64,000 nucleotides of DNA from Methylobacterium sp. WL1 (GTDB lineage: Bacteria > Pseudomonadota > Alphaproteobacteria > Rhizobiales > Beijerinckiaceae). The notes beneath the pieces are model-generated. The model saw nothing but the letters and a program-made list of their open reading frames with translations. It was not told the DNA's origin and searched no databases. A program made the position numbers and the translations under genes. Shown in pieces: positions 45,732 through 62,990 of this stretch. How positions within the stretch are numbered: the stretch's first letter is position 1; each line of letters starts with the position of its first letter. Location of the stretch: NCBI RefSeq assembly GCF_008000895.1, contig NZ_CP042823.1, positions 930,001-994,000 on the forward strand. The letters are read 5' to 3'.

Positions 45732-47012
45732 TCAGGGAAAGCCGGGGGTGAGGAGGGTGATCCCTTTCGCCGGGCGATCGGCGGCGGTCCCGTCCGGCGG
45801 GAACGGCGCGCCGGCGGCGACCCGCTCGGCATGGGCCGGCAACCAGCGGGCGCTGTCCACCGAGACGGCCGCGATGCACCGCCCCGCCCGTCCGTAGACG
45901 GCGAGGAAGCGGCCGGTGCCGGGCTCGCCATGGGTGATCGCCAGGGCGTCCGCGCCCTCGGTCAGCCCGACGGACTTGACCACCACGTTGCCCTGCGCGG
46001 ACCAGAAGGTCGGCAACGCGCCGTAGGGGCCCTCGGGCTTCGCCCCGGCCAGCAGCCGCCCGGCATGGATGCCCTGCGCCACCGCCTGGCTCCAATGCTC
46101 CAGCGCCACGCGCCGCCCGCCGTAGAGCGGATGGGGGAACCGGGCCACGTCGCCGGCGGCGGCGATGCGCGGGTCGGCCGCCCCGTCGGTGTCGAGGACG
46201 TAGCCCGCCGCGTCGCAATCGACGCCGCCCGGATCCGCCGACAGGCCGGAGCCGTCGAGCCATTCGGTGTTGCGGACGGCCCCGAGGGCGATCACCGCGA
46301 CGTCCGCGTCGATGCGGGTGCCGTCCGTGAGGTGTGCGCGCACGAACCGGCCGTCCGCCTCTTCGAGCCACTCGACCTCGCTGCCGCAGCGCAGATCGAC
46401 GCCCCGCCCCTCGTGGATCGCCCCGATGAACGCCCCGACCGTGCCTCCGAGGACGCGGGCCAGGGGCGTCGGCCCGGGCTCGACCAAGGTCACCGGCAGG
46501 CCGAGCTGCCGGCACACGCTGGCGACCTCGCAGCCGATGAAGCCGCCGCCGATCACCAACACCCGGCGGGGAGCCGCGGCCAGCGCGGTCCGCAGGGCGG
46601 CGGCATCGTCCCGCCCGCGCAGGGTGAAGACGCCGGCCAGCCGGCCCTCATGGGGGTTGGGCCACGCCCGGGCGCGGGTGCCGGTGGCGATCAGCAAGCG
46701 GTCGTAGGGCAGGGCGCGCCCGTCCGCGAGGTGGAGGGTGCGCGCCCCCCGGTCGAGGCGCTCGGCCGGGCTTCCGAGACGCCATTCCACATCCGCGCCG
46801 AGGCTGCTCGGCAGGGCGGTCGCGTCCGGTCCGGTCTCGCCGGTGAGAACGTGCTTCGAGAATGGCGGACGGTCATAGGGCCGGTACGGCTCGGCGCCGA
46901 CGATGGTCAGCGGACCGGCGAACCCGGCCTCCCGCATCGCCTCGGCGCCGCGCAAAGCCGCCAGGCCGGCGCCCACCACGATCGCGCGCTCGGTGGTCGA
47001 TCCCGACGCCAT
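45732..47012 (-). CDS. FAD-dependent ferredoxin reductase for the P450
   Basis: 426 residues. FAD-binding N terminus ERAIVVGAGLAALRGAEAMR, the putidaredoxin-reductase-type YRPYDRPPFSKHVLTGE, NAD-binding RVLVIGGGFIGCEVASVCRQ, and the FAD-closing IAAAGDVARFPHPLYGGRR followed by ALEHWSQAVAQG. It should pass electrons from NADH to the small ferredoxin encoded immediately upstream (one base between the two genes) and so to the P450. A C-terminal domain (about 320-426) is of the reductase C type. Confidence 0.93.
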   Translation of the reverse strand: MASGSTTERAIVVGAGLAALRGAEAMREAGFAGPLTIVGAEPYRPYDRPPFSKHVLTGETGPDATALPSSLGADVEWRLGSPAERLDRGARTLHLADGRALPYDRLLIATGTRARAWPNPHEGRLAGVFTLRGRDDAAALRTALAAAPRRVLVIGGGFIGCEVASVCRQLGLPVTLVEPGPTPLARVLGGTVGAFIGAIHEGRGVDLRCGSEVEWLEEADGRFVRAHLTDGTRIDADVAVIALGAVRNTEWLDGSGLSADPGGVDCDAAGYVLDTDGAADPRIAAAGDVARFPHPLYGGRRVALEHWSQAVAQGIHAGRLLAGAKPEGPYGALPTFWSAQGNVVVKSVGLTEGADALAITHGEPGTGRFLAVYGRAGRCIAAVSVDSARWLPAHAERVAAGAPFPPDGTAADRPAKGITLLTPGFP

Positions 47013-47013
47013 C

Positions 47014-47259
47014 TCAGGCAGCCTGCCCCGGATCCTCGACCCGGATCGCCTGGACCGGGCAGGCGACGCGCGCCCGCTCGATGTCGGCGCGGTCGTGCGC
47101 GGCCGGGGCGGGATCGTAGAACAGCGCCTCGTGTCCCTCGATGCGGAAGTGCCGCGGCGCCGCGTAACAGCACTGGGCGTAGGCCTGGCAGAGGTTCAGA
47201 TCGACGCACACCCGCAGGCCGGGTGGTGAGCCGGAGGACGCATCGGCGGGGGTGGACAT
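47014..47259 (-). CDS. [3Fe-4S]-type ferredoxin
   Basis: 81 residues. The motif CQAYAQCCYAAP followed later by ACPVQAIRVED gives C-x5-C and a final CP, the arrangement of single-cluster ferredoxins that serve P450s (C-x5-C…CP), probably [3Fe-4S]. It lies one base from the reductase gene. The ATG at 47259 has no strong ribosome site; a GTG near VCVDLNLCQ is a possible later start. Genes 47259 to 44377 form a complete three-component monooxygenase operon. Confidence 0.88.
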   Translation of the reverse strand: MSTPADASSGSPPGLRVCVDLNLCQAYAQCCYAAPRHFRIEGHEALFYDPAPAAHDRADIERARVACPVQAIRVEDPGQAA

Positions 47260-47702: not shown

Positions 47703-48275
47703 ATGCCGTACGGTGCACGAACGAGTCTCGCCGCGCTCGTCCTCGCCCTCGCCCTCGCCCTGGGCGCGACCGGCGCGCGCGCCGAGCCGGCCTCGGGCTG
47801 GACCGACCCGCCAGCCCGCAAGGTGGCCCCGGCCGCGAGCCCGGCCGAGGCTCAGAAAGCCGATCCGCCGCCCGCATCGACTCCTGCTGCCGCGGCACCG
47901 GCCCGCAAGGCGGTCGCCGCACGGCCCACTCAGAAGCGCGTCGCGACGCGCCGCCCCGCCCCGGAGGCCAAGCGGGTCGCTACGACGCGGGGCGCCACGA
48001 CGGCGCACCGGTCGCGTGTCGCCGCAGCGGCGGCCCGGCCCATGCGTCCGCACCGGATGGTCGCGGTCGCACCGCCCCCACCGCCGCCGCTGCCGGACGG
48101 CTATCCGCGCTATCGGGCCTACAATTACGGCCCCGGCTATGCCGACGAGCGGCTGGAGCGCCTGCGTGCCGCGGAGGCCGCCGGCTACATGGTGGTACGC
48201 CGCCGCACGGTGGAGTTCCCGGACGGCCGGTCGCTGCGCGTCTACCGGCCGGACGACGAGGGCGAGCCGTTCTGA
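47703..48275 (+). CDS. Ala/Pro-rich secreted protein
   Basis: 190 residues from ATG 47703, with AGGAGGG directly upstream. Signal peptide SLAALVLALALALGATGARA, cleavage before EPASGW. The mature part is a low-complexity Ala/Pro/Arg/Lys linker (about 30-120) ending in a proline run, then a C-terminal region GYPRYRAYNYGPGYADERLE and YMVVRRRTVEFPDGRSLRVY. The basic linker may contact DNA, LPS or peptidoglycan. No family recognised. Its 3' end overlaps the convergent acyl-CoA synthetase gene by 34 bases. Confidence 0.65.
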   Translation: MPYGARTSLAALVLALALALGATGARAEPASGWTDPPARKVAPAASPAEAQKADPPPASTPAAAAPARKAVAARPTQKRVATRRPAPEAKRVATTRGATTAHRSRVAAAAARPMRPHRMVAVAPPPPPPLPDGYPRYRAYNYGPGYADERLERLRAAEAAGYMVVRRRTVEFPDGRSLRVYRPDDEGEPF

Positions 48276-50017
48276 GCTGATCCGACCGCGAACACCGACC
48301 GCAGGGGCGCCCGCAGGATCTTGCCGGCGGGGTTGCGGGGCAGGAGCCCGTCCCAGACCACCACGCGCACCGGAACCTTGAACGCCGCGAGCCGCTCGGC
48401 CGCGAAGGCCCGGATCTCCTCGGGTCCGGTCCGGGCCCCCTCGGCCAGGGCCACGATCGCGCCGGGCTCCTCGCCCAGCGTCGGGTGGGGCACCGCCAGC
48501 ACCACCGCGTCGATCACGTCCGGATGCGCGTAGAGGACGTTCTCGACCTCGCAGCAATAGATGTTCTCGCCGCCGCGGATCAGCATGTCCTTGATCCGGT
48601 CGACGATGGTCAGGAACCCCTCGTCGTCGGCGCGCGCGAGATCGCCGGTGCGCAGCCAGCCGTCGGACAGGATTTCGGCGGTGGCGTCCGGGTCGTCCCA
48701 GTAGCCGCGGACCACGTTGGGGCCCTTCACGTACAGCTCCCCGACGCTGCCGGGCGGCAGGTCCTGCCCGAGCGGATCGAGGATCCGCACCTCGCAGACC
48801 GGCAGGGGCGGGCCGCAGGATTCGGGATGGGCGAGATAGTCCTCGGCCTGGTGGTGGGTGAAGGTCGCCGAGGTCTCGGTCATGCCCCAGCCGGTGGCGG
48901 GGGCCGCCTTCGGGAACGCCTCGCCGAGCGCGCGCACCAGGTCGCCGGCCGCGGGCGCGCCGCCATAGGTCACCGATTCGAGGCTCGGCAGCGGCCGGCC
49001 CGCCTCCCGGGCGGCTGTCGCGAGCTGCCAAGCGATGGTCGGGACGCCGCCGGCTCCGGTGCAGCCCTCCCGGTCGATGAGGTCGAGGGCCTCATGGGCG
49101 TCCCAGCGATGCATCATCACCAGGCGGTGGCCGCCGTAGAGCGCCGCCCCGAGGTTCGCGTGGCAGCCGGTGACGTGGAACAGCGGGATCACCAGCAGCG
49201 AGGCCCGCTGCGGTGCGGACGGATCGGGCTTCGGCGGCGTCTCGCCCCGGCGCAGCGCACTGCGCGACGCCGAATAGGGGTAGGCCATCACGGTGGTGGC
49301 CGCAGCCCGGTGGGTGCCGACCGCACCCTTGGGCCGGCCGGTGGTGCCCGAGGTGTAGAACAGGGTCGCGTCGTCCTCCGGGTCGAGGGCGATGGCGGGC
49401 GGGGCCCGCTCGGGCAGAGCGGCCCAGTCCGCCACCGGGCCGATCACCGCGGAGAGTGGCGTCATTCGGTCGTCGGGCTCCATCCGCGTGACGAAAACCC
49501 GCTCCAGGGCCGGGCATTCCGTGCGGTGGTGGGCGATCCGCTCGAACCGGGCGCCGTCGGCGATCAGCACCCGGGCGCCGGAATGCCGGAGCGCGTAGGC
49601 GAGTTCCGGCCCGGTCCACCACGCGTTCAGCGGCGTCGCGATCGCCCCGGCCAGCAGGGCACCGTAATAGCAGACCGGCCATTCCGGCAGATTGCGCAGC
49701 GCGATGGCGACGCGGTCGCCCTTGCCGATCCCGGCGGCCACCAGGGCGTGGGCCAGGGCGGTCGCGGCCCGGGTGAAGCCGGTGAAGGTGACGCGCTCGT
49801 CCCGGTAGACCACGAAGGTCCGGTCCCCGTGCCCTCGGGCGATGCGGAACAGGTCGCGCAGCGTCGGCGGCGCGCTCGTCCAGATCCGGGTCGGGACGCC
49901 CCGGATCGGCAGGTTGGCGATCGCGAACGGCGCCCCTGGTGCGGTGAGGCGCGCTTCCGCCTCGCGGAAGGAGAGGGCCGGCCAGCCGGCGGGAAGGCGG
50001 GGATCGGGGCTCGTCAT
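48242..50017 (-). CDS. Acyl-CoA synthetase (AMP-forming)
   Basis: 591 residues of the ANL family. AMP-binding motif DDATLFYTSGTTGRPKGAVG, YxxTE-like WGMTETSATFTHH, aspartate hinge region DGWLRTGDLARADDEGFLTI, DRIKDMLIRGGENIYCCEVE, and the catalytic Lys in LLPRNPAGKILRAPLR. It activates a carboxylic acid with ATP and CoA; the chain length cannot be told. Its ATG overlaps the upstream SDR stop by four bases (ATGA), and it closes a nine-gene minus-strand operon that looks like hydroxyacid breakdown. Position and company fit an LvaE-type role. Confidence 0.93.
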   Translation of the reverse strand: MTSPDPRLPAGWPALSFREAEARLTAPGAPFAIANLPIRGVPTRIWTSAPPTLRDLFRIARGHGDRTFVVYRDERVTFTGFTRAATALAHALVAAGIGKGDRVAIALRNLPEWPVCYYGALLAGAIATPLNAWWTGPELAYALRHSGARVLIADGARFERIAHHRTECPALERVFVTRMEPDDRMTPLSAVIGPVADWAALPERAPPAIALDPEDDATLFYTSGTTGRPKGAVGTHRAAATTVMAYPYSASRSALRRGETPPKPDPSAPQRASLLVIPLFHVTGCHANLGAALYGGHRLVMMHRWDAHEALDLIDREGCTGAGGVPTIAWQLATAAREAGRPLPSLESVTYGGAPAAGDLVRALGEAFPKAAPATGWGMTETSATFTHHQAEDYLAHPESCGPPLPVCEVRILDPLGQDLPPGSVGELYVKGPNVVRGYWDDPDATAEILSDGWLRTGDLARADDEGFLTIVDRIKDMLIRGGENIYCCEVENVLYAHPDVIDAVVLAVPHPTLGEEPGAIVALAEGARTGPEEIRAFAAERLAAFKVPVRVVVWDGLLPRNPAGKILRAPLRSVFAVGSAQNGSPSSSGR

Positions 50018-50784
50018 CGCGCGATCGTCACGCCGCCGTCGACGACCAGCGCCTGGCCGGTGACGAACCGGCCGGCCGGCGAGGCCAGGAACACGGCCGC
50101 GCCCGCGATCTCGTCAGGCTCGCCGATCCGGCGGAGCGGCGCGGCCTCGGTGGTGGATGCCAGCATCTCGGGATCCTCCCACAGGGCCCGGGCGAAATCG
50201 GTGCGGATCAGCCCCGGGCACAGGCAGTTCACCCGCACGTTGGCCGGGCCGTACTCGACCGCGTAATTGCGGGCGAGTTGAAGGTCGGCGGCCTTGGAGA
50301 CGTTGTAGGCGCCGATCACCGGCGACCCCTTCAGCGCCCCGATGGACGAGACGATGACGATCGCCCCGTCCCGCCGCGCGACCATCCCGGGGGCGACCAT
50401 CTGGATCAGCCAGTGGTTCGACAGGACGTTGTTCTCCAGGATCTTGCGGAACTGGGCGTCCGAGATGCCGGCGAGCGGCCCGTAATACGGGTTGCTGGCG
50501 GCATTGCAGACCAGCACGTCCACCAGACCCAACCGGGCTTCGGTCCGGGCGACCAGATCCTCCAGCTCCGCCTTTACCGAGATGCTCGCCGGGATCGCCA
50601 CCGCGCGGCCCGGGCCGTGGGCGGCCTCGATTTCGGCCACCACCGCCTCGCAGGCCTCGCGCTTGCGCGACGAGATCACCACCCGCGCGCCGTGCTCGGC
50701 CATCCGCAGGGCGATCGCCCGGCCGATGCCCCGGGACGAGCCGGTGATCAGCGCGACCTTGTCGGTCAGATCGAACAGGGACAT
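50014..50784 (-). CDS. SDR-family oxidoreductase
   Basis: 256 residues. Cofactor loop VALITGSSRGIGRAIALRMA, NNAG-type motif seen as CNAASN, active site Ser in VSSIGALKG, YNVSK (Tyr-x3-Lys), and GG-end VTGQALVVDGGVTIAR typical of beta-ketoacyl reductase-like enzymes. NADP(H) preference is suggested by the Arg in SSRKREACE. GGAGG lies ahead of ATG 50784. In the operon it could oxidise or reduce a hydroxy/keto acyl-CoA. Confidence 0.92.
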   Translation of the reverse strand: MSLFDLTDKVALITGSSRGIGRAIALRMAEHGARVVISSRKREACEAVVAEIEAAHGPGRAVAIPASISVKAELEDLVARTEARLGLVDVLVCNAASNPYYGPLAGISDAQFRKILENNVLSNHWLIQMVAPGMVARRDGAIVIVSSIGALKGSPVIGAYNVSKAADLQLARNYAVEYGPANVRVNCLCPGLIRTDFARALWEDPEMLASTTEAAPLRRIGEPDEIAGAAVFLASPAGRFVTGQALVVDGGVTIAR

Positions 50785-50813
50785 GGCGCGTCCTCCCTGG
50801 GTCCGGTCGGGGG

Positions 50814-51591
50814 TCATCCGGCGTCCAGCATCGACCGGCGCAGGCGCGCCATGCCGGCGAGCCAGCGCTCGGGATCGTCCGCCCGGCGGCGTGCGTAGTC
50901 CGCGACCTGCGGGTGCGGCAGGATCAGGAACCGGCCGGCGGCCAGCCCGTCGAAGGCCGCCTCGGCCACGGCTTCGGGCGCGAGCACGCCGTCGCGGGCG
51001 GCGGCGCTCGCGGCACCGAGCATGGCGGTGTCGACGCCCCTGCGGGCACAGGGCGGCGATCCGGATGCCGTCCCCCGCATGCGCGATGGCGAGGTGCTCC
51101 AGGAAGGCGAGGGCGGCGTGCTTGGTCGCCGAGTAGGTCGCGCTGCCGATCTGGCTCAGCAATCCGGCCGCCGAGACGGTGCCGAGGAACGCCCCCTCGC
51201 CCCGGGCGAGCCAGAGCGGGACCAGGACCCGCGCCGCGTGGACGTGGCCCATCACGTTCACCGACCAGGCGCGCTCCCAGCTCGCCGGATCGGCCGAGGT
51301 CGCGAGCCCGGGATCCGGGTCGCGCTCCAGGATGCCGGCATTGGAGCAGTACAGCGCGATCGGCCCGGTCTCGGCCTCGATCCGCGCGATGGACTCGGCC
51401 ACGGCATCGGGATCGGCCACGTCGAGCGCGCAGGCGCGGCCGCCGAGCCGGGCGGCGACGGCCTGGGCCCCGGCGCCGTCCCGGTCCAGGGCGACGACGC
51501 AGGCGCCCCGCGCGTGGGCAGCCTCGGCGAGCGCACGGCCGATGCCCCCGGCGGCCCCGGTGACGGCGACGACGCGACCGGCGAGATCCAT
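50814..51591 (-). pseudogene. SDR-family oxidoreductase, one frameshift
   Basis: N-terminal frame from ATG 51591: MDLAGRVVAVTGAAGGIGRA, CSNAGILERDPD, VSAAGLLSQIGSATYSATKH (YSATK active site). The frame breaks near 51037: the run CCCC at 51037-51040 has one base too many, and removing it continues into GVDTAMLGAASAAARDGVLA and LPHPQVADYARRRADD. Repaired length about 259 residues. The C-terminal piece with LILPHPQVADYAR is typical of SDRs in fatty-acid and steroid clusters. Start codon is two bases after the kinase stop. Probably intact in the living cell. Confidence 0.82.
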
Positions 51592-51592
51592 C

Positions 51593-52655
51593 TCAGGCCC
51601 CTGCGCGCTCGGCGAACGCCCAGGCCGCGGCGGCCAGAGCCGGCACCCGCGCCGCCATGGCGGCGGCGTGCTTGCTCGCTCGCGGCGTTGCCGGCCTTGG
51701 CACGCGCGGCCACGCCCTGGAGGATGCCGACCAGCCGGAACAGGTTGTAGGCGAAGTACCAGTCGAGGTCGGGCAGGGCCGCCCGGTCCGCGGCCCGGCA
51801 GTAGAGCGCCACCGCCTCCTCCCGGGTCGGGATGCCCAGCGCCGGCAGGTCGAGGCCGCCGAGGCCGCTGCGCCCGTCCGCCGGCAAAGCCCAATGCATC
51901 AGCAGGTAGCTGAAATCGGCGAGCGGATCGCCGAGGGTCGACAGCTCCCAGTCGAGCACCGCGCTGACGCCGCCGTCGGGCGAGAAGATCAGGTTGTCGA
52001 GGCGGTAATCGCCGTGGACGATGGCCGTGCCCTGCTGCTCGGGCACGGTGCGGGGCAGCCAGGCGATCAGGCGCTCCACATCCGCGAGCCGGCCGTCCTC
52101 GGCGGCCCGGTACTGGCGGGTCCAGCGATCGACCTGCCGGGCGAAGTAGTTGCCGGGCTTGCCGTAATCGGCGAGGCCCGCCGCCTCCGGGTCGATCGCG
52201 TGGAGGCGCGCGAGCGTCGCGATCATGCCGGCATAGTGCCGGTGCCGGGCATGGGGGTCGAGGCCGGGCAGGGTGCCGTCCCAGTGCACGCTGCCGCCCA
52301 CCGCCTCCATCACGTAGAAGGCGGCGCCGATGATCGTTTCGTCCTCGCAGAGGGCGAACGGCCTCGGAACCGGAAACCCCTCGCCGTAGAGCGCGCCGAT
52401 CACCCGGAACTCGCGCTCCACCGCGTGCGCGGAGGGCAGGAGCGTCCCGAACGGCTTGCGCCGCAGCACGTAGGCCTGGCCGGGCGTCTCCAGCCGGTAG
52501 GTCGGGTTCGACTGGCCGCCGCGGAATTGCTGCACGGTGAGCGGCCCGGCATAGTCGCGGACGTGTTCGGCGAGCCAGGCTGCCAGCCGGGCCTCGTCGA
52601 TCCGATGGCGCGGCTCGACCGGCTTCACGCCGGAGAAGGCGTCGGGGCCGCTCAT
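51593..52655 (-). CDS. APH/choline-kinase-like phosphotransferase, frameshift near the 3' end
   Basis: About 354 residues. N-terminal [20 protein letters not shown] and [20 protein letters not shown] (nucleotide-binding Lys), the catalytic loop [19 protein letters not shown] (Asp and Asn), and the metal-binding [20 protein letters not shown]. One extra base near 51667 shifts the last 25 residues; the restored end is [23 protein letters not shown] 52655 overlaps the acyl-CoA dehydrogenase stop (ATGA). Such kinases next to (or fused with) acyl-CoA dehydrogenases act in 4-hydroxyacyl-CoA breakdown: LvaA in Pseudomonas, and ACAD10/11 in animals. That role is inferred here. Confidence 0.88.
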
Positions 52656-53887
52656 GCACCCTCCCGGGCGTTGGTGTAGCGCCCGAATTCGAGCCGGGCG
52701 ATGGAGCGGTTGTGCACCTCGTCCGGCCCGTCGGCCAGCCGCAGAGTGCGGATATGGGCGTACATCCTGGCCAGTCCGAAATCCTCGGACACGCCGGCGC
52801 CGCCATGGGCCTGGATCGCGTCGTCGATCACCTTGAGGGCGATCCGCGGGGCGGCGACCTTGATCATGGCGATCTCGAGCTTCGCACCCTTGGCGCCGAC
52901 CTTGTCCATCATGTCGGCGGCCTTCAGGCAGAGCAGCCGGGTCATCTCGATGTCGATCCGCGCCTCCGCGACCCGCTGCTCCCAGACCGACTGCTCGCTG
53001 ATGCGCTTGCCGAAGGCGACCCGCGAGACGAGGCGCCGGGCCATGGCCTCGAGCGCCGCCTCGGCGACCCCGATGGTGCGCATGCAATGGTGGATGCGCC
53101 CCGGCCCGAGCCGCCCCTGCGCGATCTCGAAGCCGCGCCCCTCGCCGAGGATCAGGTTCTCGGCCGGGACGCGCACGTTCTCGAGCACCACCTCGCCGTG
53201 TCCCTTGGGCGCGTCCTCGTAGCCGAAGACCGGCAGCAGGCGCGCGACCCGCAGGCCGGGCGTGTCCATGGGCACGAGGATCTGGGATTGCTGCCGGTGG
53301 CGGGGCGCGTCCGGGTCCGTCTTGCCCATCAGGATCGCGAGGCTGCAGCGCGGGTCGCCGACCCCGGTGGACCACCATTTGCGTCCGTCGATGACGTAGT
53401 GGTCGCCGTCGCGGCGGATCGCGGTCTCGATGTTGGTGGCGTCCGAGGAGGCGACATCGGGCTCGGTCATCAGGAACGCCGACCGGATCTCCCCGGCCAT
53501 CAGCGGCCGCAGCCACGTCTCCTTCTGGGCCGGGCTGCCGTAGCGGTGCAGCACCTCCATGTTGCCGGTGTCGGGCGCCGCGCAGTTGAAGCATTCCGAC
53601 GCGATGCCGACCCGACCCATCGCCTCGGCGCAGAGCGCGTAATCGAGGTTGGTCAGGCCGGCGCCGCGGTAGGCGTCCGTGTCATGCTCGGGGGAGGGCG
53701 GCAGGAACAGGTTCCACAGCCCTTCCCCGCGGGCTTTGTCCTTCAGCCGTTCCATCGTGGGCGAGGGTGCGCGGCTCGCCGCCCGCTCGGCCGCCACCGC
53801 GGCGGCGGCGGGCAGGATCGCGTCGGCGATGAAGGCGCGGACCCGGGTCAGCCAGTGCGTCTGGGATGGGGAGAGGTCGAAATCCAC
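52652..53887 (-). CDS. Acyl-CoA dehydrogenase, ACAD10/11-like
   Basis: 411 residues. N-terminal helices ([20 protein letters not shown]), FAD loop [20 protein letters not shown] and [24 protein letters not shown]-type region [20 protein letters not shown], and C-terminal [40 protein letters not shown] and [20 protein letters not shown]. The DGPDEVH ending and QAHGGAGVS are typical of the ACAD10/11 and LvaC groups. Overlap with the phosphotransferase gene indicates joint function. It is separated from the ABC transporter genes upstream by an intergenic repeat pair, but still on the same strand. Confidence 0.92.
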
Positions 53888-53928
53888 GGTGTCCGCTCCC
53901 GAGTTTCGTTCCGATGGGATCCGCGCCT

Positions 53929-53987
53929 CTCCCTCCCCCCTTTGCGGGGGAGGGTGGGCCGGCCGTCAGGCCGGGTCGGGAGAGGGG
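53929..53987. repeat. Intergenic repeat, copy 1
   Basis: A GC-rich element of 59 bases starting CTCCCTCCCCCCTTTGCGG and ending GGGTCGGGAGAGGGG. Inverted copy at 54052-54112 and a direct copy at 56578-56634; the three share the 'CCTTTGCGGGGGAGGGTGG' and 'GTCAGGCCGGGTCGGGA' blocks with small changes. Confidence 0.75.
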
Positions 53988-54051
53988 AGCGACGGTGCCG
54001 AAGAAGGCTGGCGGCCTTCATCACCGCTCCGCCCCTTTCTGATGCCGGGTT

Positions 54052-54112
54052 CCCCTCTCCCGACCCCCGCTGACGCGAGGGCCACCCTCCCCCGCAAAGG
54101 GGGGAGGGGGAG
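54052..54112. repeat. Intergenic repeat, copy 2 (inverted)
   Basis: Reverse-complement relative of the 53929-53987 element, about 64 bases away. Together they can pair into a long stem between the acyl-CoA dehydrogenase and LivGF genes, and might limit read-through or protect mRNA ends. Confidence 0.7.
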
Positions 54113-54132
54113 CAGCGGGTCCGATTCCCCCC

Positions 54133-55635
54133 TCACAGATACTTCGATCCCATCTCGCCGGCGAACCGGTCCGGCGGGCCTTCCCAAACGATGCGGGCCT
54201 GTTCCAGCACGTAGACCCGGTCGGCATGGGGCAGCGCGAAGGTGACGTTCTGCTCGCCGAGCAGGACGGTGATCGGCGTGGTCTGTCGCAGGCGCTCCAG
54301 GGCCTTCGACAGCAGCTCCAGGATCACCGGGGCGAGGCCGAGCGTCGGCTCGTCGAGGATCAGGAGGCGTGGGCGCATCATCAAGGCGCGGGCAATGGTC
54401 AGCATCTGCTGCTCACCGCCCGACAGCGTGCGGGCGGTCTGGCCTTCGCGGGCCTTCAGGATCGGGAACAGCTCGTAGAGCCACTCGCGCCGCTGCACGC
54501 TCTCGGCCTTGGTGACGTGCTGGCCGCCGAGATCGAGGTTCTCGCGCACGTTGAGGTCGCCGAACAGCTCGCGGGTCTCGGGCACCTGGACGATCCCGGC
54601 CCGGGCGATCGCGGCCGGCTTCATGCGGCCGAGATCCTGGCCGTCGAACCGGATCGTGCCGGAATGCGGGACGAGGCCCGAGATGGCGTTGAACAGCGTG
54701 GTCTTGCCGGCGCCGTTGAGGCCCACCACCGAGACGAACTCGCCCTCGTGGACGTGGATCGAGGCGGCGCGCAGGGCCTGCGCCTTGCCGTAGAGCACGT
54801 CGACGCCCTCGACGGTGAGCAGCGAATCCGCCTTGAACGCGGCCTCGGGCCTGGCGGCGGTCTCGATGCTGCCGCCGAGATAGACCCGGCGCACCGTCGG
54901 GTCGGCCATCACCGCCTCGGCCGAGCCCTCCGCGATGCGTTCGCCGAGATACATGGCGAACACCCGGTCCACGAGGGCCGCGACGCTCTTCACGTTGTGG
55001 TCGACGAGGAGCACGGCCTTGCCCTCGTCCCGGAAGCCCCGGATCAGCTCGGAGAAGGCCGCGACCTCGCCCCCGGTCAGGCCCGCGAACGGCTCGTCCA
55101 CCAGCACCACCCGCGGGTCGCGGGCGATCGCCTTGGCGAGTTCCAGGCGGCGCAGGTCCGCGAAGGGGAGGGTACCGGGCCGCCGGTCGGCCACCGCGCC
55201 GAGGCCGACGCGCTCGGCGATGTCCCTTGCGCGGCGCGCGACGTGGGGATCCGCAGCCAGGCGGATCAGGCTGTCGGGCAGCAGCGCGAGGCTGATGTTC
55301 TCCAGCACGGTCTGCCGCTGGAGCGGTCGCGCGTGCTGGAACACGAGGCCGATCCCCTGGCGGGCGACCCGGTGGGCCGGCATTCCGCCGATCTCGGCGC
55401 CGTCGAGGCGGATCGAGCCGGCGCTCGGCCGCTCCAGCCCCATGATCAGCTTCATCACGGTGGACTTGCCCGAGCCGTTCGGCCCGATCAGTCCCAGGAT
55501 CTCCCCGGGGCGCAGATCGAGGTCGATGTCCTTGACGGCGACGAGGCCGCCGAACCGCTTGGTCAGGCCCCGCACCGTGAGGCAGGGCTCGGCGAGGGGG
55601 GCGGCGTTCAGCGCAGGCCTGACGGCGACGGTCAT
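54133..55635 (-). CDS. Fused branched-chain-type ABC ATPase (LivG-LivF)
   Basis: 500 residues containing two ABC domains in one chain; LivG and LivF are usually separate. First domain (about 15-255): Walker A GLIGPNGSGKSTVMK, Walker B VVLVDEPFAGL, His loop LLVDHNVKS; its signature is unusual, LPFADLRRLELAKA in place of LSGGQ-type. Second domain (about 270-500): Walker A VVGLNGAGKTTLFN, signature LSGGEQQML, Walker B LLILDEPTLGLAP, Q/His loop LLGEQNVTF. It powers import by LivH/LivM. The start ATG 55635 overlaps the LivM stop by four bases. Confidence 0.92.
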   Translation of the reverse strand: MTVAVRPALNAAPLAEPCLTVRGLTKRFGGLVAVKDIDLDLRPGEILGLIGPNGSGKSTVMKLIMGLERPSAGSIRLDGAEIGGMPAHRVARQGIGLVFQHARPLQRQTVLENISLALLPDSLIRLAADPHVARRARDIAERVGLGAVADRRPGTLPFADLRRLELAKAIARDPRVVLVDEPFAGLTGGEVAAFSELIRGFRDEGKAVLLVDHNVKSVAALVDRVFAMYLGERIAEGSAEAVMADPTVRRVYLGGSIETAARPEAAFKADSLLTVEGVDVLYGKAQALRAASIHVHEGEFVSVVGLNGAGKTTLFNAISGLVPHSGTIRFDGQDLGRMKPAAIARAGIVQVPETRELFGDLNVRENLDLGGQHVTKAESVQRREWLYELFPILKAREGQTARTLSGGEQQMLTIARALMMRPRLLILDEPTLGLAPVILELLSKALERLRQTTPITVLLGEQNVTFALPHADRVYVLEQARIVWEGPPDRFAGEMGSKYL

Positions 55636-56564
55636 CGCGCTCTCCGGATGGATGCGAGGCCCAGCAGCCCCGAGGGCACGAACAGGATGACCAGCAGGGC
55701 CACGGCCGAGACCACGAAGGTCGAGAGCGGACCGAGCGGGCGCAGCAATTCGCCGGCGGCGATCAGGAACACCGCCCCGAGCGCGGCGCCCACGATGGTC
55801 CGCCGCCCGCCGAGCACCGCCGCGATGATCACCTGCACGCCCACCGCGGTGTCGATCAGCGTGCCGACCGAGGCGGTGCCCATGTAGAAGACCACCAGCC
55901 CACCCGCGAGGCCCGAAAAGGCGGCGCTGACCGCAAAGGCCGCGAGCTTGTGCTTGGCGACGTTGAAGCCGAGCGCGCCGGTCACGATCGGGTCCTGGCC
56001 GGCAGCCTGCAGGATCAGCCCCACCGGGGAGCGGGCGATGGCCGTGAGGACCAGCCCGGCAAAGGCCATGAAGCCGAGCGCGATCCAGTAATTGGTGTCG
56101 GCGTCGATGGAGATCACGTCCGGCACCGTGAGCCCGATCTCGCCGCCGGTGATCCCGGAGAACACCACGATCATGTTCTGCAGGAGCAGCACCGCGACCA
56201 GGGTGATCAGCCCGAAATACGGACCCCGCACCTTCAGGGCCGGCAGCGCCAGGGCCAGCCCGCCGACCACCGCCAGCACGGTCCCGGCCGCCAGGCAGTA
56301 GGGGATCGGCAGCTCGTAGCGGTTGTTGAGGATGCCGGCCCCGTAGGCTCCGAGCCCGATCAGGAAGGTCGGGCCGAAATTCACCTCGCCGGCGAAGCCG
56401 AAGAGCAGGTCCCAGGCCATGGCGAAGACGCCGAAATAATACGCGATGGTGAGGAGCCCGAGGATGTAGCCCGAGACCCACCAGGGCAGGAACGCGGCCA
56501 GGGCGAGCGCCAGCAGCGCGACCCAGAAGCCCGGGGTGGTGAGGAGCTTCATGAGCGGTTCCAT
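55632..56564 (-). CDS. livM: Branched-chain-type ABC permease LivM
   Basis: About 310 residues, eight to ten membrane helices. Opening MKLLTTPGFWVALLALALAA, the conserved YFGVFAMAWDLLFGFAGEVN and FGPTFLIGLGAYGAGILNN, and the C-terminal IIAAVLGGRRTIVGAALGAV with GG motif contacting the ATPase. Two starts are possible: ATG 56564 touches the GGAGG sequence directly, so ATG 56552 is a realistic alternative. Substrate of this HAAT-family transporter is set by the binding protein; amino acids, amides or small organic acids are all known. Confidence 0.93.
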   Translation of the reverse strand: MEPLMKLLTTPGFWVALLALALAAFLPWWVSGYILGLLTIAYYFGVFAMAWDLLFGFAGEVNFGPTFLIGLGAYGAGILNNRYELPIPYCLAAGTVLAVVGGLALALPALKVRGPYFGLITLVAVLLLQNMIVVFSGITGGEIGLTVPDVISIDADTNYWIALGFMAFAGLVLTAIARSPVGLILQAAGQDPIVTGALGFNVAKHKLAAFAVSAAFSGLAGGLVVFYMGTASVGTLIDTAVGVQVIIAAVLGGRRTIVGAALGAVFLIAAGELLRPLGPLSTFVVSAVALLVILFVPSGLLGLASIRRAR

Positions 56565-56577
56565 CCTCCGCGCGTTG

Positions 56578-56634
56578 CCCTCCGCCCTCTGCGGGGGAAG
56601 GTAGGCCGGCCGTCAGGCCGGGTCGGGATAGGGG
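56578..56634. repeat. Intergenic repeat, copy 3
   Basis: Direct relative of the 53929-53987 element, sharing 'GCCGGCCGTCAGGCCGGGTC' exactly. Lies between the two permease genes. Confidence 0.7.
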
Positions 56635-56697
56635 AGAGCGTTCCGCGGAGGTTGCGCATGTGGCATTCGGGCCGGCGGGAGAGTCCCGAAAGAACCA

Positions 56698-57573
56698 TCA
56701 CCGCCGCCCCAGCAGGCCCTGCGGGCGCAGGTACATGACGGCCACGAGCAGCAGCAGGGCCGGGATCACCCGGTAGGCCGGGGAGATCAGGTAGGCGGTG
56801 GCCGTCTCGAGATAGCCGACCACATAAGCCGCGATCAGCGAGCCGGTGACGCTGCCGAGCCCGCCCAGCACCACGATCGAGAAGGCGCTCGCGGTGAGCG
56901 GCCCCACCGAGTAGGACGACACCCCCAGGAACATCCCGAGCAGCACCCCGGCGATCCCGGCGAGCAGCCCGTAGATCGCCCAGACCGCGACGTAGATCCG
57001 GCCCATGTCGTGGCCGAGCAGCGTGACCCCGCGGGGGTTCATGGAGGCGGCGAGCAGGACCTTGCCGGCCCGCGCCTTGTTCACGAACAGCCAGAGCAGG
57101 CCGATCACGATCCAGCAGATCACCGCGGTGAAGATCTCGTTGCGGGGCGTGCGCACCCCGGCGATCTCGATCACGCCCTCGACGATCGGCAGGACCGTCT
57201 TCGGGTTGTCGGTGAAGAAGTAGGCGACCAGCTCCTGGATCATGATGCCCCAGAGCAGGGTGCCGGTGAGGACGAAGATCTCCTTCTCCTCCCGGGGGAT
57301 CGCCCTGCTGCGCTCGATCGGCGCGACGATGGCGAAGTAGGTCACCAGGGAAGCGGCCAGCCCGCACAAGATGCCGATCCCGGCGCCCGCGTAGGAGCCG
57401 AGGCCGAACTGGGCGGAGGCCGCCCAGGCGGCGACCGCAGCCATCACCATCAGCGCGCCGTGCGAGAGGTTGAGCACGCCGGAGACGCCGAAGATCAGGG
57501 TGAAGCCCATCGCGCCGAGCGCGTAGAGCGCCGAGATCGCGAAGCCGTCGACGAGGATCTGGAGGCCGATCAT
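56698..57573 (-). CDS. livH: Branched-chain-type ABC permease LivH
   Basis: 291 residues, eight helices. QILVDGFAISALYALGAMGF and TLIFGVSGVLNLSHGALMVM are the family opening, and SAFSIVVLGGLGSVTGSLIA with YLRPQGLLGR closes it. Pairs with LivM to form the inner-membrane channel. Starts 19 bases after the stop of the binding-protein gene, so they are in one operon. Confidence 0.94.
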   Translation of the reverse strand: MIGLQILVDGFAISALYALGAMGFTLIFGVSGVLNLSHGALMVMAAVAAWAASAQFGLGSYAGAGIGILCGLAASLVTYFAIVAPIERSRAIPREEKEIFVLTGTLLWGIMIQELVAYFFTDNPKTVLPIVEGVIEIAGVRTPRNEIFTAVICWIVIGLLWLFVNKARAGKVLLAASMNPRGVTLLGHDMGRIYVAVWAIYGLLAGIAGVLLGMFLGVSSYSVGPLTASAFSIVVLGGLGSVTGSLIAAYVVGYLETATAYLISPAYRVIPALLLLVAVMYLRPQGLLGRR

Positions 57574-57592: not shown

Positions 57593-58852
57593 TCACTGCA
57601 CCGCCGGCTTGACCGCGGGCGGCAGGACCAGCTTGCCGTTGGCCACCTCCGTCGGCCAGATCGCGACCTGCTTGCCGCTCTGCCACTGGGCCAGCAGCCC
57701 GGTGACGAAGCCCCGCCCGTACTTGATCGAGTGGGTGAAGGTCTCGTCCTTGCCGTAGAACTGGATGCGCCCGACCGTGCCGAGCCAGTCGGTCTTCTCC
57801 AGGGCCTCGACCAGCTTGTCGGCCTCGGTGGAGCCGGCGCGCTTCACCGCGTCCGCCGCGTAGTGCATCGCGTCGTAGGCCATGTAGCCCGCGTAGGACG
57901 GGGCGCCGCCGAAGCGCTTGACGTAGGCGTCCGTGAAGGCGTTCGTCTTCTCGGTCATCGCCACGCCGGGGACGGCGATCGCGTCGAACAGCACGCCCTG
58001 CGTGCCGCCGTTGGTGTTGGCCCAGAAGGTGGACGAAGTCGCCTGGCCGCTGATGCCGGTCATGGCGATCGGCACCTGCTGGTTCTGCCACTGTACGGTG
58101 GGCTGCACGCCGACATGGGCGATGCCGGTGACGATCAGGTCGGGCTTGGCCGCCTCGATCTTGTTGTAGATCGGGGTGAAGTCGCCCGTATCCGGCGAGA
58201 ACCGGACATGCTCCACCACCTTGAGCCCGGCCTTGGGCAGGCAGTCCTCGTAGGCCGCATCCAGCGGACGGGTCCAGGCCGCGTCCTCGCTCATGATCGC
58301 GGCGGATTTCGCCTTGAGCAGCCCGACCAGCGCCTCCTTGGCCGAGTCGCAGACCGACTGCGCCAGGGCGTGCGAGGTCAGGTAGCCGTGGAAGGTGTAG
58401 CGGTTGCGCGCGTAGTCCTTGTGGACGGCGACGCTGATCTCGTTGGAGGCGGCCCCCGGGGTAATCATCGGGGTCTTGAGCCGCGCCGACCAAGGCATCA
58501 GCGCCAGCACGACCTCGGAGATGTAGCTGGCGATGACGAGGTTGACCTTGTCCTCGCTGACCGCCCGCTGGAACGCCCGGACCGCGTCGGAGGCGGAACT
58601 CTTGTCGTCGTAGGTCACGACCTGGATCTGGCGCCCGTCGACCCCGCCCTGGGCGTTGATCTCGTCGGCGGCGAGCTGGACCGCCTTCGGGATCGCGGCG
58701 CCGGCCACCGACTGCGCCTCGGCGATCACGCCGACCTTGATCGGGTCGGCCGCGTGGGCCTGTCCCGACACGATCAGCCCCGCAGCGAGCAGCGTGGGCA
58801 GCGCGCGCCGAATCGGGGCACGCCGAGCGACGACGCGCACGGTCTCGGACAT
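57593..58852 (-). CDS. Periplasmic substrate-binding protein of the HAAT ABC importer
   Basis: 419 residues. Signal peptide RRALPTLLAAGLIVSGQAHA, cleavage before ADPIKVGVIAEAQSVAG. Two-lobed Leu/Ile/Val-binding fold: VQLAADEINAQGGVDGRQIQ, VITYDDK-like VTYDDKSSASDAV, ISEVVLALMPWSARLKTPMI, YTFHGYLTSHALAQS, and a hinge near DFTPIYNKIEAAKPDLIVTG. GAGGA lies upstream of ATG 58852. First gene of the minus-strand operon running to 48242. Homologues bind diverse aliphatic or aromatic acids; the ligand here is unknown. Confidence 0.93.
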   Translation of the reverse strand: MSETVRVVARRAPIRRALPTLLAAGLIVSGQAHAADPIKVGVIAEAQSVAGAAIPKAVQLAADEINAQGGVDGRQIQVVTYDDKSSASDAVRAFQRAVSEDKVNLVIASYISEVVLALMPWSARLKTPMITPGAASNEISVAVHKDYARNRYTFHGYLTSHALAQSVCDSAKEALVGLLKAKSAAIMSEDAAWTRPLDAAYEDCLPKAGLKVVEHVRFSPDTGDFTPIYNKIEAAKPDLIVTGIAHVGVQPTVQWQNQQVPIAMTGISGQATSSTFWANTNGGTQGVLFDAIAVPGVAMTEKTNAFTDAYVKRFGGAPSYAGYMAYDAMHYAADAVKRAGSTEADKLVEALEKTDWLGTVGRIQFYGKDETFTHSIKYGRGFVTGLLAQWQSGKQVAIWPTEVANGKLVLPPAVKPAVQ

Positions 58853-59176: not shown

Positions 59177-60202
59177 ATGAGCCTGCGCTGGACCCGGCGC
59201 CCGGAGGGCTCGACCTGGGGGGATTTCGGCCCCGACGACGAACTCGGACGCCTGAACCTGCTGACCCCCGAGAAGGTCCGCCAGGGCGTCGCCGAGGTCC
59301 GCGAGGGCCTGACCTTCTGCCTCAGCCTGCCGCTGGACCTGCCCGGCGGCACCGTCCTCAATCCGCGCCGCCACCCGCCGCAGATCACCCCGACCCGGCG
59401 GGCCGACGGCCGGCCGAACATGAACTTCCCGGTCTGCGAGGAGGTCGCGGGCGCCACCGACGTGATCTGCGACGACCGCGCGCTGATCCACCTGCAATAC
59501 TCGACGCAGTGGGATTCGCTCGCCCATGTCGGCTCGCTGTTCGATGCGGACGGCACCGGCGCCGGCCCGACCTTCTACAACGGCTTCCGCGGCGGCCGGG
59601 ACATCGTCGGCCCGAGCACGAACGAGGCGGCCGACCAGCCGTCCCGGGCGAACAGACTCGGGATCGAGCGCCTGGCCGAAGTCGGCATGCAGGGTCGGGC
59701 CGTGATGATCGACCTGCGCGCGCATCTCGCCGACGCCAAGGTCAAGGTCGGCTACGACCAGCTCGCCCGGATCCTCGAGGCCGACGGCGTCGTGATCGAG
59801 CCCGGCGACATGGTCTGCCTGCACACCGGCTTCGCCGAGCGGCTGATCGCCATGGGCGGCACGCCCGATCCGAAGCAGGTCCACAACCTCTGCGCCGGCC
59901 TCGACGGCCGGGACCCGCGGCTCCTCGACTGGATCACCCGCTCGGGGCTGTGCGCGCTGATCGCCGACAACTACGCCGTGGAGGCCTATCCGGCCGGGGT
60001 GGGACCGGCCTGCTGCGCGACGCTGCCGCTCCACGAGCACTGCCTGTTCAAGCTCGGAATCAACCTCGGCGAGCTGTGGCACCTGACGCCGCTCGCGGAG
60101 TGGCTGCGCGCCCATGGCCGCAGCCGGTTCCTGCTGACGGCGCCGCCGCTGCGCCTGCCAGGGGCGGTCGGCTCGCCGACGACGCCGATCGCGACGGTTT
60201 GA
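59177..60202 (+). CDS. Cyclase-family (kynurenine formamidase-like) hydrolase
   Basis: 341 residues, PF04199-type. Sequence runs RRPEGSTWGDFGPDDELGRL, NLLTPEKVRQGVAEVREG, LQYSTQWDSLAHVGSLFDAD, then VMIDLRAHLADA and LHTGFAERLIAMGG, and CCATLPLHEHCLFKLGINLG near the end. The metal-binding HxGTHxDxPxH motif of small members is altered to a Q-x-S-T-x-W-D-S-x-x-H form, as in the long subgroup. Probably hydrolyses an amide, lactone or ring; substrate unknown. First gene of the plus-strand operon. Confidence 0.85.
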   Translation: MSLRWTRRPEGSTWGDFGPDDELGRLNLLTPEKVRQGVAEVREGLTFCLSLPLDLPGGTVLNPRRHPPQITPTRRADGRPNMNFPVCEEVAGATDVICDDRALIHLQYSTQWDSLAHVGSLFDADGTGAGPTFYNGFRGGRDIVGPSTNEAADQPSRANRLGIERLAEVGMQGRAVMIDLRAHLADAKVKVGYDQLARILEADGVVIEPGDMVCLHTGFAERLIAMGGTPDPKQVHNLCAGLDGRDPRLLDWITRSGLCALIADNYAVEAYPAGVGPACCATLPLHEHCLFKLGINLGELWHLTPLAEWLRAHGRSRFLLTAPPLRLPGAVGSPTTPIATV

Positions 60203-60213
60203 GGGAGGGCACG

Positions 60214-61161
60214 ATGGAGATCGCGATCGTCGGCGGCGGCCTGATGGGCCACGGCATCGCCCTGGTGCTGGCGCTCCGGGGGCATGACGTCCGGATCACC
60301 GACACGGATGCGCAGACCCGTGCCCGGGTGCCGGCGCTCATGGAATCCGCGCTGGCGACCCTGCAGGAGGGCGGCGCTGCGCCGGACGGGTGGGACGCCG
60401 CGCGGCTCGCCCGGTCCGTCCGGGTCGAGGCGGAGCTCGAACCGGCGGTCGCGGGCGCCGGCCTGGTCATCGAGGCGATCACCGAGAACCCGGAATCCAA
60501 GCGGGCGCTGTTCGGGGCGCTCGACCGGCTCTGCCCGGCCGACGCGATCCTGGCGAGCAACACCAGCTACCTCGACGTCTTCCCGCTGATCCCGCAGGCC
60601 CGGCAGGCGCGGGCGCTCGTGATGCACTGGTACACGCCGCCCTACATCGTCGACCTCGTCGACGTGGTCCCGGGGCCCGGCACGGATCCGGCCGTGATCG
60701 CGGCGATGCACGACCTCGTGCTCGGCCTCGGTCAGGTGCCCATCGTGCTCAAGCGCTTCATCCCCGGCTACGTCGCCAACCGCATCCAGTCGGCGATCAG
60801 CGCCGAGGTGTTCCGGCTGCTGGACGAAGGCATCGCCGAGCCGCGCGAGATCGACGACGCGATCATCCACGGGCTCAGCTTACGCATCCCGATCCTCGGC
60901 CACCTCGCCAAGGCCGATTTCACCGGGCTGGACCTGACCCGGCGCGCCCTGGCGAACGGCAGCTACGCGCCGCCCCCGGCCCGGACCCGGTCGGAGACCC
61001 TGGACGCACTCTGCGCCGGGGGCCGGACCGGAGTGATGGCGGGGCGCGGCTATTTCGACTGGGGCGGGCGCGAGCCTGCGGACCTGTTCCGCGAGCGCGA
61101 CCGCAAGCTGCTGGCCTTGAAGAAGGCGATGGCCGGGATCGGCCGGATGGAGGGTACATGA
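60214..61161 (+). CDS. 3-hydroxyacyl-CoA dehydrogenase-family protein
   Basis: 315 residues. NAD-binding MEIAIVGGGLMGHGIALVLA and Asp-ended strand ITDTDAQ; ITENPESKRALFGALDRLCP and ILASNTSYLDVFPLIPQARQ; the catalytic His in LVMHWYTPPYIVDLVDVVPG; and PIVLKRFIPGYVANRIQSAI leading into the helical C-terminal domain. GGGAGGG precedes ATG 60214. The HWYTPPYI loop differs from typical HFFNPPH of fatty-acid enzymes, and resembles carnitine/lambda-crystallin-type dehydrogenases that oxidise a free beta-hydroxy acid. Coupled by an ATGA overlap to the SDR downstream. Confidence 0.9.
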   Translation: MEIAIVGGGLMGHGIALVLALRGHDVRITDTDAQTRARVPALMESALATLQEGGAAPDGWDAARLARSVRVEAELEPAVAGAGLVIEAITENPESKRALFGALDRLCPADAILASNTSYLDVFPLIPQARQARALVMHWYTPPYIVDLVDVVPGPGTDPAVIAAMHDLVLGLGQVPIVLKRFIPGYVANRIQSAISAEVFRLLDEGIAEPREIDDAIIHGLSLRIPILGHLAKADFTGLDLTRRALANGSYAPPPARTRSETLDALCAGGRTGVMAGRGYFDWGGREPADLFRERDRKLLALKKAMAGIGRMEGT

Positions 61162-61916
61162 TCGGCGCGGACCTGTCCGGACGGCGCATCCTCGTCACCG
61201 GCGCCTCCTCGGGCATCGGGCTGGCCACGGTGACGCTGTTCGCCCGCAACGGCGCCAGCGTGGCGCTGAACCACCTCCCCGACGATCCCCGCGGCCCCGC
61301 GGAGGCCGAGCGTCTCGCCGCCGAGGGCCTGGCCGTGATGGCGCTGCCCGGGGACGTGTCACGTCCCGGCGAGGCCGAGGCGATGGTGGCGGCCGGGATC
61401 GCGGCGCTCGGCGGCCTCGACGTGCTGGTCAACAATGCCGGGACCTCCGGCACCACTGCGCCGATCGCCTTCGAGGACCTCGACGCGATGACGGAAGAGT
61501 TTTGGGCCACCATCCTGGCCACGAACCTCCTCGGCCCGTACCGCTGTTCGCGGGCCGCGGCGGCGAGTCTGAAAGACAACCGCGGGGCGATCGTCAACAC
61601 GTCCTCCGTGGCCGGGCTCGGGCGGCGGGGCTCCTCGATCGCCTATTCGGCCAGCAAGGCCGGGCTGATCAATCTCACCCGCAGCCTGGCCAGGGCCCTC
61701 GCCCCGGACGTGCGCGTCAACGCGGTCGCCCCCGGCCTCGTCGCCACCCCGTGGACCGAGCCGTGGCCGGAGGCGCGCAAGGCCGCGACGGTGCAGCACA
61801 CGATGCTGCGCCGCATGGCCCGGCCCGAGGACATCGCCGAGACGATCTTCTTCCTGGCCGCGGGCGCCGCCTACATCACGGGCGAGACGATCACGGTGGA
61901 TGGCGGGGCGCTATAG
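61158..61916 (+). CDS. SDR-family oxidoreductase
   Basis: 252 residues. RRILVTGASSGIGLATVTLF, DVLVNNAGTSGTTAPIAFED, IVNTSSVAGLGRRGSSIAYS with YSASKAGLI (Tyr-x3-Lys), and the closing ITGETITVDGGAL. ALNHLPDD after the second strand leaves cofactor type open. Starts inside the end of the preceding gene (ATGA), and the BKACE gene follows after 55 bases, so it belongs to the beta-hydroxy/keto acid operon. Confidence 0.92.
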   Translation: MIGADLSGRRILVTGASSGIGLATVTLFARNGASVALNHLPDDPRGPAEAERLAAEGLAVMALPGDVSRPGEAEAMVAAGIAALGGLDVLVNNAGTSGTTAPIAFEDLDAMTEEFWATILATNLLGPYRCSRAAAASLKDNRGAIVNTSSVAGLGRRGSSIAYSASKAGLINLTRSLARALAPDVRVNAVAPGLVATPWTEPWPEARKAATVQHTMLRRMARPEDIAETIFFLAAGAAYITGETITVDGGAL

Positions 61917-61971
61917 CGGCCCTCGTCCACACGCGGGACGGCACCGTCAGGATCAGGCCAGGGAGGAAAGT

Positions 61972-62856: not shown

Positions 62857-62990
62857 AGGGAGACCCTGACGGATCGCCCGCATCCTCTCACCGGCCGGTA
62901 TCGGCTCCGATCCGGTCCGCCTAGACTGCATTCGGACGACATCCGAGCGGCGAACAACGCCGCCGCGATCAAAGAAACAGGGAGTGAGAC

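Follow-up and report, generated by a model that had tools for sequence, protein, structure and literature searches.

Which reactions are encoded by a compact run of acyl-CoA genes in Methylobacterium sp. WL1, and do they amount to the levulinate pathway of the pseudomonads? The question is raised by a stretch of 64,000 nucleotides (hereafter the window; positions 930,001 to 994,000 of contig NZ_CP042823.1, in a genome of 6.25 Mb on two contigs), where five enzyme genes span 48242-53887 on the minus strand downstream of a transporter of the HAAT type. An earlier note had read them as a counterpart of the Pseudomonas putida lva operon, equipped with its own uptake system. From the gene order, family membership, catalytic residues and conservation read directly from the DNA, we conclude that the locus is probably a bacterial module of the ACAD10/11 type, in which a kinase and an acyl-CoA dehydrogenase (ACAD) that are fused in animals are encoded separately, and not an lva operon.

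The gene types and their order are those given in the earlier note: a ligase, two short-chain dehydrogenases (SDRs), an APH-like kinase and an ACAD10/11-like ACAD, all on the minus strand. In the order of transcription, with coordinates counted within the window, the locus comprises:

57593..58852, minus strand: HAAT periplasmic substrate-binding protein (Peripla_BP_6; Pfam PF13458)
56698..57573, minus strand: HAAT permease 1 (BPD_transp_2; Pfam match)
55632..56564, minus strand: HAAT permease 2 (BPD_transp_2; Pfam match)
54133..55635, minus strand: LivG and LivF ATPases fused in a single 500-aa protein (two ABC_tran stretches)
53914..54125, strand not applicable: inverted repeat with 75-nt arms (84%), dispersed in the genome
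52652..53887, minus strand: ACAD10/11-type acyl-CoA dehydrogenase family protein, predicted 4-phosphoacyl-CoA eliminase (carrying R626, R631, H634, R637 and D753 of mouse ACAD11)
51593..52655, minus strand: ACAD10/11-type APH-fold kinase, predicted 4-hydroxyacyl-CoA kinase (frame shift near 51675)
50814..51591, minus strand: SDR1, short-chain dehydrogenase (frame shift near 51038; missing in some relatives)
50014..50784, minus strand: SDR2, short-chain dehydrogenase (family match)
48242..50017, minus strand: AMP-forming acyl-CoA ligase (PF00501 and PF13193)

The HAAT set is complete (substrate-binding protein, two permeases, two ATPase domains) and does lie upstream on the same strand, separated from the ACAD gene by 245 bases, most of which are filled by the inverted repeat. 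A 70-base piece of this repeat matches 63 sites in the genome, several of them as close inverted pairs; within the window the repeat also occurs at 56567-56636. The junctions of 1 to 4 bases previously ascribed to all enzyme genes hold for three of the four: ACAD and kinase overlap by 4 bases, kinase and SDR1 are 1 base apart, and SDR2 and ligase overlap by 4; SDR1 and SDR2 are 29 bases apart. A scan for promoters and terminators gave no signal above that of shuffled sequences.

The kinase and the ACAD carry the assignment. The best solved relatives of the kinase are PDB 3dxp (354 bits, 50% identity) and mouse ACAD11 (245 bits, 41% identity to its kinase), against 29-33% identity over shorter or partial stretches for the lva-type kinases. 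In a tree of 38 rows, a branch supported at 100/100 splits 19 ACAD11-type kinases (the window's, mouse ACAD11, 3dxp and 16 more) from 19 that are lva-type or linked to DUF6285; forcing the window kinase together with the lva kinases costs 388 log units (approximately unbiased (AU) test, p 3.6e-5). The lva operon is represented here by three loci, L215, L229 and L230, the LvaA and LvaC proteins of strain KT2440 themselves being absent from the trees. The window kinase is a member of the ACAD10/11 kinase clade and stands outside the lva-type LvaA group. Its catalytic loop VHGDYRLDN (VHGDFKLDN with D220 in ACAD11) and its metal-site motif LDWE (identical in ACAD11) both precede the frame shift. 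An aminoglycoside-resistance kinase was considered and rejected, the score being 37.6 bits against a curated APH(3') cut-off of 205.

The ACAD behaves in the same manner. Its best solved relative is mouse ACAD11 (457 bits, 56% identity), compared with 33-34% identity to LvaC; in a tree of 32 dereplicated rows it shares a 13-row clade with mouse ACAD11 (100/100), and the penalty for placing it with the LvaC-type rows is 102 log units (AU p 6e-17). The window ACAD is thus placed in the ACAD11 clade, outside the LvaC-type group. According to the accessible portions of PMC12440821, the kinase domain of ACAD11 forms a 4-phosphoacyl-CoA from which its ACAD domain yields the 2-enoyl-CoA; R626, H634 and R637 are modelled there as holders of the phosphate, D753 is the base, and changes at R626, H634 or R637 ablate the ACAD step. 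The window protein keeps every 4-phosphate-handling residue of ACAD11 that was tested, namely R626, R631, H634, R637 (the HCMR motif) and D753, a full set present in 15 of 15 ACAD11/LvaC-type rows of the tree and in 0 of the 17 other ACADs. The earlier note had called for such trees, and had named a position outside both the LvaA/LvaC and the ACAD11 groups as an outcome that would speak against the chemistry; both proteins fall outside the former and inside the latter, and since both are inside the ACAD11 clade the chemistry is not refuted.

Could the locus nevertheless be an lva operon, whose LvaE, LvaD, LvaA and LvaC homologues degrade levulinate, with a HAAT importer replacing the symporter and without LvaB? 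The enzyme types are the same, the phosphate-elimination residues are common to the window ACAD and LvaC, and LvaB can be missing, as is shown by the P. citronellolis cluster reported without lvaB in the part of PMC6692424 available. The trees just described reject the window kinase and ACAD from the lva-type groups, and further evidence comes from lva-type loci. L215, which appears to be Pseudomonas-like from its family and genus codes and its gene content, has the lva order: PrpR-type sigma-54 regulator, kinase, DUF6285, ACAD, SDR and ligase. Stutzerimonas locus L229 has the same genes together with a histidine phosphatase gene, DUF485 and a cation acetate symporter, a layout that fits the lva clusters described in PMC6692424 as far as accessible. 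Because a DUF6285 gene directly follows the kinase in both, and because two P. aeruginosa plasmid records, where the match is a kinase with 88% identity, give a gene at that match the label "lvaB: 4-hydroxypentanoyl-CoA kinase subunit LvaB", we take LvaB to be Pfam DUF6285. The link between the two is made here; a search under the latter name found no paper in the literature covered.

With a DUF6285 model built in this analysis, the family was found in 24 of 24 LvaA-type loci (kinases 50-100% identical to that of L215, taken from 298 genomes of its genus; one of these loci had also served to train the model), but in none of the loci of the window's type in three partly overlapping sets (0 of 80, 0 of 30, 0 of 20; stretches of about 2.6-19 kb). 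None occurs among the open reading frames (ORFs) of at least 60 aa in the 64-kb window, which bears out the remark of the earlier note that LvaB was not to be seen. A count of signature ACADs in 3.2-kb DUF6285 loci (1 of 30) was not used: in the own-genome loci the ACAD lies beyond a flank of this length. At three DUF6285-kinase loci (L175, L179, L204) the ACAD that follows is without the Arg/His/Arg/Asp set, and LvaAB-like kinases thus also stand beside a different ACAD. Among the genes identified between 48242 and 64000 (cyclase, dehydrogenase, BKACE, HAAT) there is neither a PrpR-type regulator nor an acetate-type symporter; the search for these two did not extend to the remainder of the window.

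The closest lva relatives in this genome lie elsewhere. Its only DUF6285 matches, at 5013664 and 63401, belong to two lvaABC-type loci, at 5.01 Mb and 58.9-63.7 kb, each with an HCMR-type ACAD, a thiolase (recognised by eye), an SDR, a kinase and DUF6285. They resemble L215 at 43-46% (kinase), 41-42% (ACAD), 58% (SDR) and 57% (ligase) identity, and the SDR and ligase of the lva operon match these two loci better than they match the window. The two (L121 3224-7934 and L122 2902-7647) are 83% identical to each other in the kinase and 93% in the ACAD. On the strength of the trees and of these better candidates we reject the levulinate reading, which we hold to be highly improbable; the one-to-one correspondence with lva claimed earlier is not supported, on the same grounds and in view of the DUF6285, regulator and symporter that were not found.

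What, then, would the ACAD10/11-type module do? CoA activation, phosphorylation of a 4-hydroxyacyl-CoA and ACAD-type elimination of the phosphate are supported at the level of enzyme families; from these we infer the activity, the substrate and the roles of the SDRs and the importer. The HAAT importer would bring in a carboxylic acid with a 4-hydroxy or 4-oxo group, which the ligase would convert to its CoA ester. One or both SDRs might then set the 4-position, either by reducing oxo to hydroxy or by inversion to the isomer preferred by the kinase; ACAD10 prefers the R isomer, according to the text available from PMC11342911. The kinase would phosphorylate the 4-hydroxyl, and the ACAD, with its aspartate base and Arg/His/Arg phosphate pocket, would eliminate the phosphate to give a 2-enoyl-CoA for beta-oxidation. 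Of the phosphorylation-based 4-hydroxyacid pathway proposed earlier, the chemistry therefore stands at family level, the levulinate label is dropped, and activity in this strain is doubtful in view of two frame shifts discussed below.

The same phosphorylating and eliminating enzymes might act on a branched, cyclic or side-chain acid, or on a hydroxyl at a different position. Steroid-24-oyl-CoA synthetase is the second-best NCBIfam model for the ligase, albeit far under its cut-off (418.7 against 750), the neighbouring genes differ between lineages, and other loci of the window's type sit among unrelated catabolic genes. However, none of the pocket residues tested departs from ACAD11, and with the broad cavity modelled for ACAD11 (PMC12440821, as accessible) a wide range of chains is in keeping with the 4-hydroxy reading. 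We consider this alternative unlikely.

Within the genus the ACAD10/11-type module is well kept. A kinase at least 75% identical is present in 30 of 111 genomes, this one included, and importer, ACAD and kinase occur together in 18 of the 20 Methylobacterium relatives fetched with flanks (two lack the importer), so that their order is conserved beyond chance. In two relatives (L014 10100-13940, L015 10110-12150) some 2-4 kb of other genes lie between SDR1 and SDR2. Of 80 loci of the window's type, 56 were long enough (at least 14 kb) for a survey of neighbours; among the 47 of these that lie outside Methylobacterium and contain the ACAD, the kinase is present in 38, an SDR2-like gene in 22 and the ligase in 3. 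No published Methylobacterium operon of this kind was found by titles and opening lines of abstracts, in a literature mostly without subscription papers.

Several observations weigh against our interpretation, or against parts of it. The evidence from sequence fixes neither the position of the hydroxyl nor the chain. Compared with mouse ACAD11, the three lvaC genes analysed here reach about 34% identity (50-51% similarity), whereas identities of 62% and 56% between LvaC and the ACAD10/11 domains are printed in the accessible part of PMC11342911; should KT2440 LvaC belong to the ACAD11 clade, the split would be weakened on the ACAD side. It would hold on the kinase side, for LvaA is given only 29% in that text. 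Among the 19 relatives with sequence at the place of SDR1, the gene was not found in two. As to uptake, of 9 named Methylobacterium loci only 5 have HAAT permeases and, at the thresholds used, none of the 47 loci from outside the genus has one, for which reason we regard the ACAD-kinase pair as the wider core and the importer as a local addition. One relative, G041, has lost the importer and keeps the enzymes; a fragment of the binding-protein gene remains at the place of the missing importer (L127 8067-8348). The dedicated uptake proposed earlier thus holds as a linkage in most relatives, one that we saw in Methylobacterium only; on that account it was rejected as a proof of function, and, the PDB matches of the binding protein being weak and varied, the importer was also rejected as a guide to the substrate. 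Finally, two frame shifts in this assembly, in the kinase and in SDR1, which the earlier note had not noticed, make a working pathway in this strain doubtful, and its route may be inactive.

In the kinase the break lies near 51675; it shifts about 27 C-terminal codons and leaves the catalytic core in frame. SDR1 breaks near 51038 and loses its last third, the broken frame reading stop-free into SDR2. Proteins of close relatives aligned to the window change frame at both places. That the operon is decaying in this strain, with kinase and SDR1 as real pseudogenes, is compatible with an ACAD10/11-type module and is a possibility to which we lend somewhat less than even weight. It agrees with the proximity of the two shifts, which lie in neighbouring genes at a distance of about 640 bases, and with the state of the relatives: the kinase reads through in 19 of the 20 with flanks (346-352 aa, counted from where the match begins), and SDR1 is in a single frame in all 17 that have it. 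In the twentieth (G062, locus L129) the kinase is in frame past the window's break, its normal end and stop not being seen in the last hundred-odd bases of the contig. A whole kinase is also present in 7 of 7 named loci checked singly (L011-L017, of which L012 is Methylobacterium fujisawaense DSM 5686, with kinase and ACAD intact), partly the same genomes as the 20 relatives, so that the two sets are not independent. On the other side stands a frame-split test over 200 kb, which flagged 9 of 113 genes of this assembly against relative G028, and 5 of 108 when the two were exchanged. Five of the nine were inspected and three look like clean shifts in well-conserved genes; assembly error is therefore a live alternative to decay. 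The test is blunt: it covered the operon and yet missed the breaks in the kinase and SDR1, because automatic gene picking took other frames there. The breaks may mark pseudogenes or assembly errors.

On the plus strand, a divergent arm begins beyond the binding-protein gene:

59177-60202, plus strand: PF04199 hydrolase/cyclase (Pfam)
60214-61161, plus strand: 3-hydroxyacyl-CoA-dehydrogenase-like (3HCDH-like) enzyme
61158-61916, plus strand: SDR of the divergent arm
61972-62856, plus strand: beta-keto acid cleavage enzyme, BKACE (PF05853)
from 62991, running off the window, plus strand: second HAAT binding protein

The cyclase adjoins the module in 17 of the 20 relatives; of the remaining three, one has a stretch that stops short of it. 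Both arms might form one catabolic island, a bacterial pathway for gamma-lactones or plant metabolites with its own uptake and built round the ACAD11 reaction: ring opening of a lactone or cyclic precursor and shortening of a beta-keto acid would fall to the arm at 59177-64000, and removal of the 4-hydroxyl that results to the ACAD11-type arm. We think this quite unlikely.

ACAD11-type ACADs were also met in other settings. In ten Pseudomonas-like genomes (L205-L214) one adjoins a LysR-like gene (named by eye), with no kinase match in the stretch, and each of these genomes encodes a 35-39% identical kinase elsewhere. On plasmid pISP1 of Sphingomonas sp. MM-1 (L226 9001-10239) one adjoins linX, near linA, between IS6100 copies. 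A Methylobacterium aquaticum plasmid (L228 8872-19074) carries another ACAD11-type ACAD and kinase with an enoyl-CoA hydratase, an acetate-CoA ligase family protein and a CoA-transferase, and with a HAAT importer nearby. Elsewhere in the window, tRNA-Leu(gag) at 46982-47072 on the minus strand (ARAGORN) overlaps the start of ORF 45732-47012 by 31 bases; one of the two ends is probably wrong.

Comparison with known systems resolves this unusual chemistry into two bacterial lineages, one having LvaA together with LvaB/DUF6285 and the other being of the ACAD10/11 type without DUF6285, and a single Methylobacterium genome carries both. The operon context of stand-alone ACAD11-type genes offers a way to search for what these enzymes, studied chiefly in animals, act on in nature. 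The Pseudomonas lva operon (represented here by L215, L229 and L230) is alike in its acyl-CoA ligase, SDR, APH-fold kinase and HCMR-type ACAD, and in its chemistry as given in the accessible parts of the papers; it is unlike the window in belonging to other kinase and ACAD groups, in DUF6285 (LvaB), in its PrpR-type regulator (L215, L229) and in its cation acetate symporter (L229). PDB 3dxp, deposited as a putative acyl-CoA dehydrogenase although its chain matches the kinase, is 50% identical to the window kinase and of the same clade; it is a solved structure whose listing gives no tested function. The Burkholderia LvaA/LvaC orthologues Q63VL0 and Q63VL1 are also a separate kinase and ACAD; according to the available text of PMC11342911, they are closer to ACAD10 than the P. 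putida pair, are active on 4-hydroxyhexanoyl-CoA and replace the ACAD10 domains on it. They are compared here by description, and their place in the clade appears to follow from the wording of that text. The nearest known systems are mouse ACAD11 and ACAD10 (PDB 8v3u, 8v3v; PMC12440821 and PMC11342911, as accessible), which share with the window the kinase and ACAD clades, the kinase motif, the aspartate base, R626 and the HCMR pocket, the likeness having been computed against ACAD11 and ACAD10 being compared by description only. In the mouse proteins kinase and ACAD are fused in one chain, in ACAD10 with an additional HAD domain, whereas in the window they are two genes of an operon that also encodes a ligase, SDRs and, in Methylobacterium, an importer.

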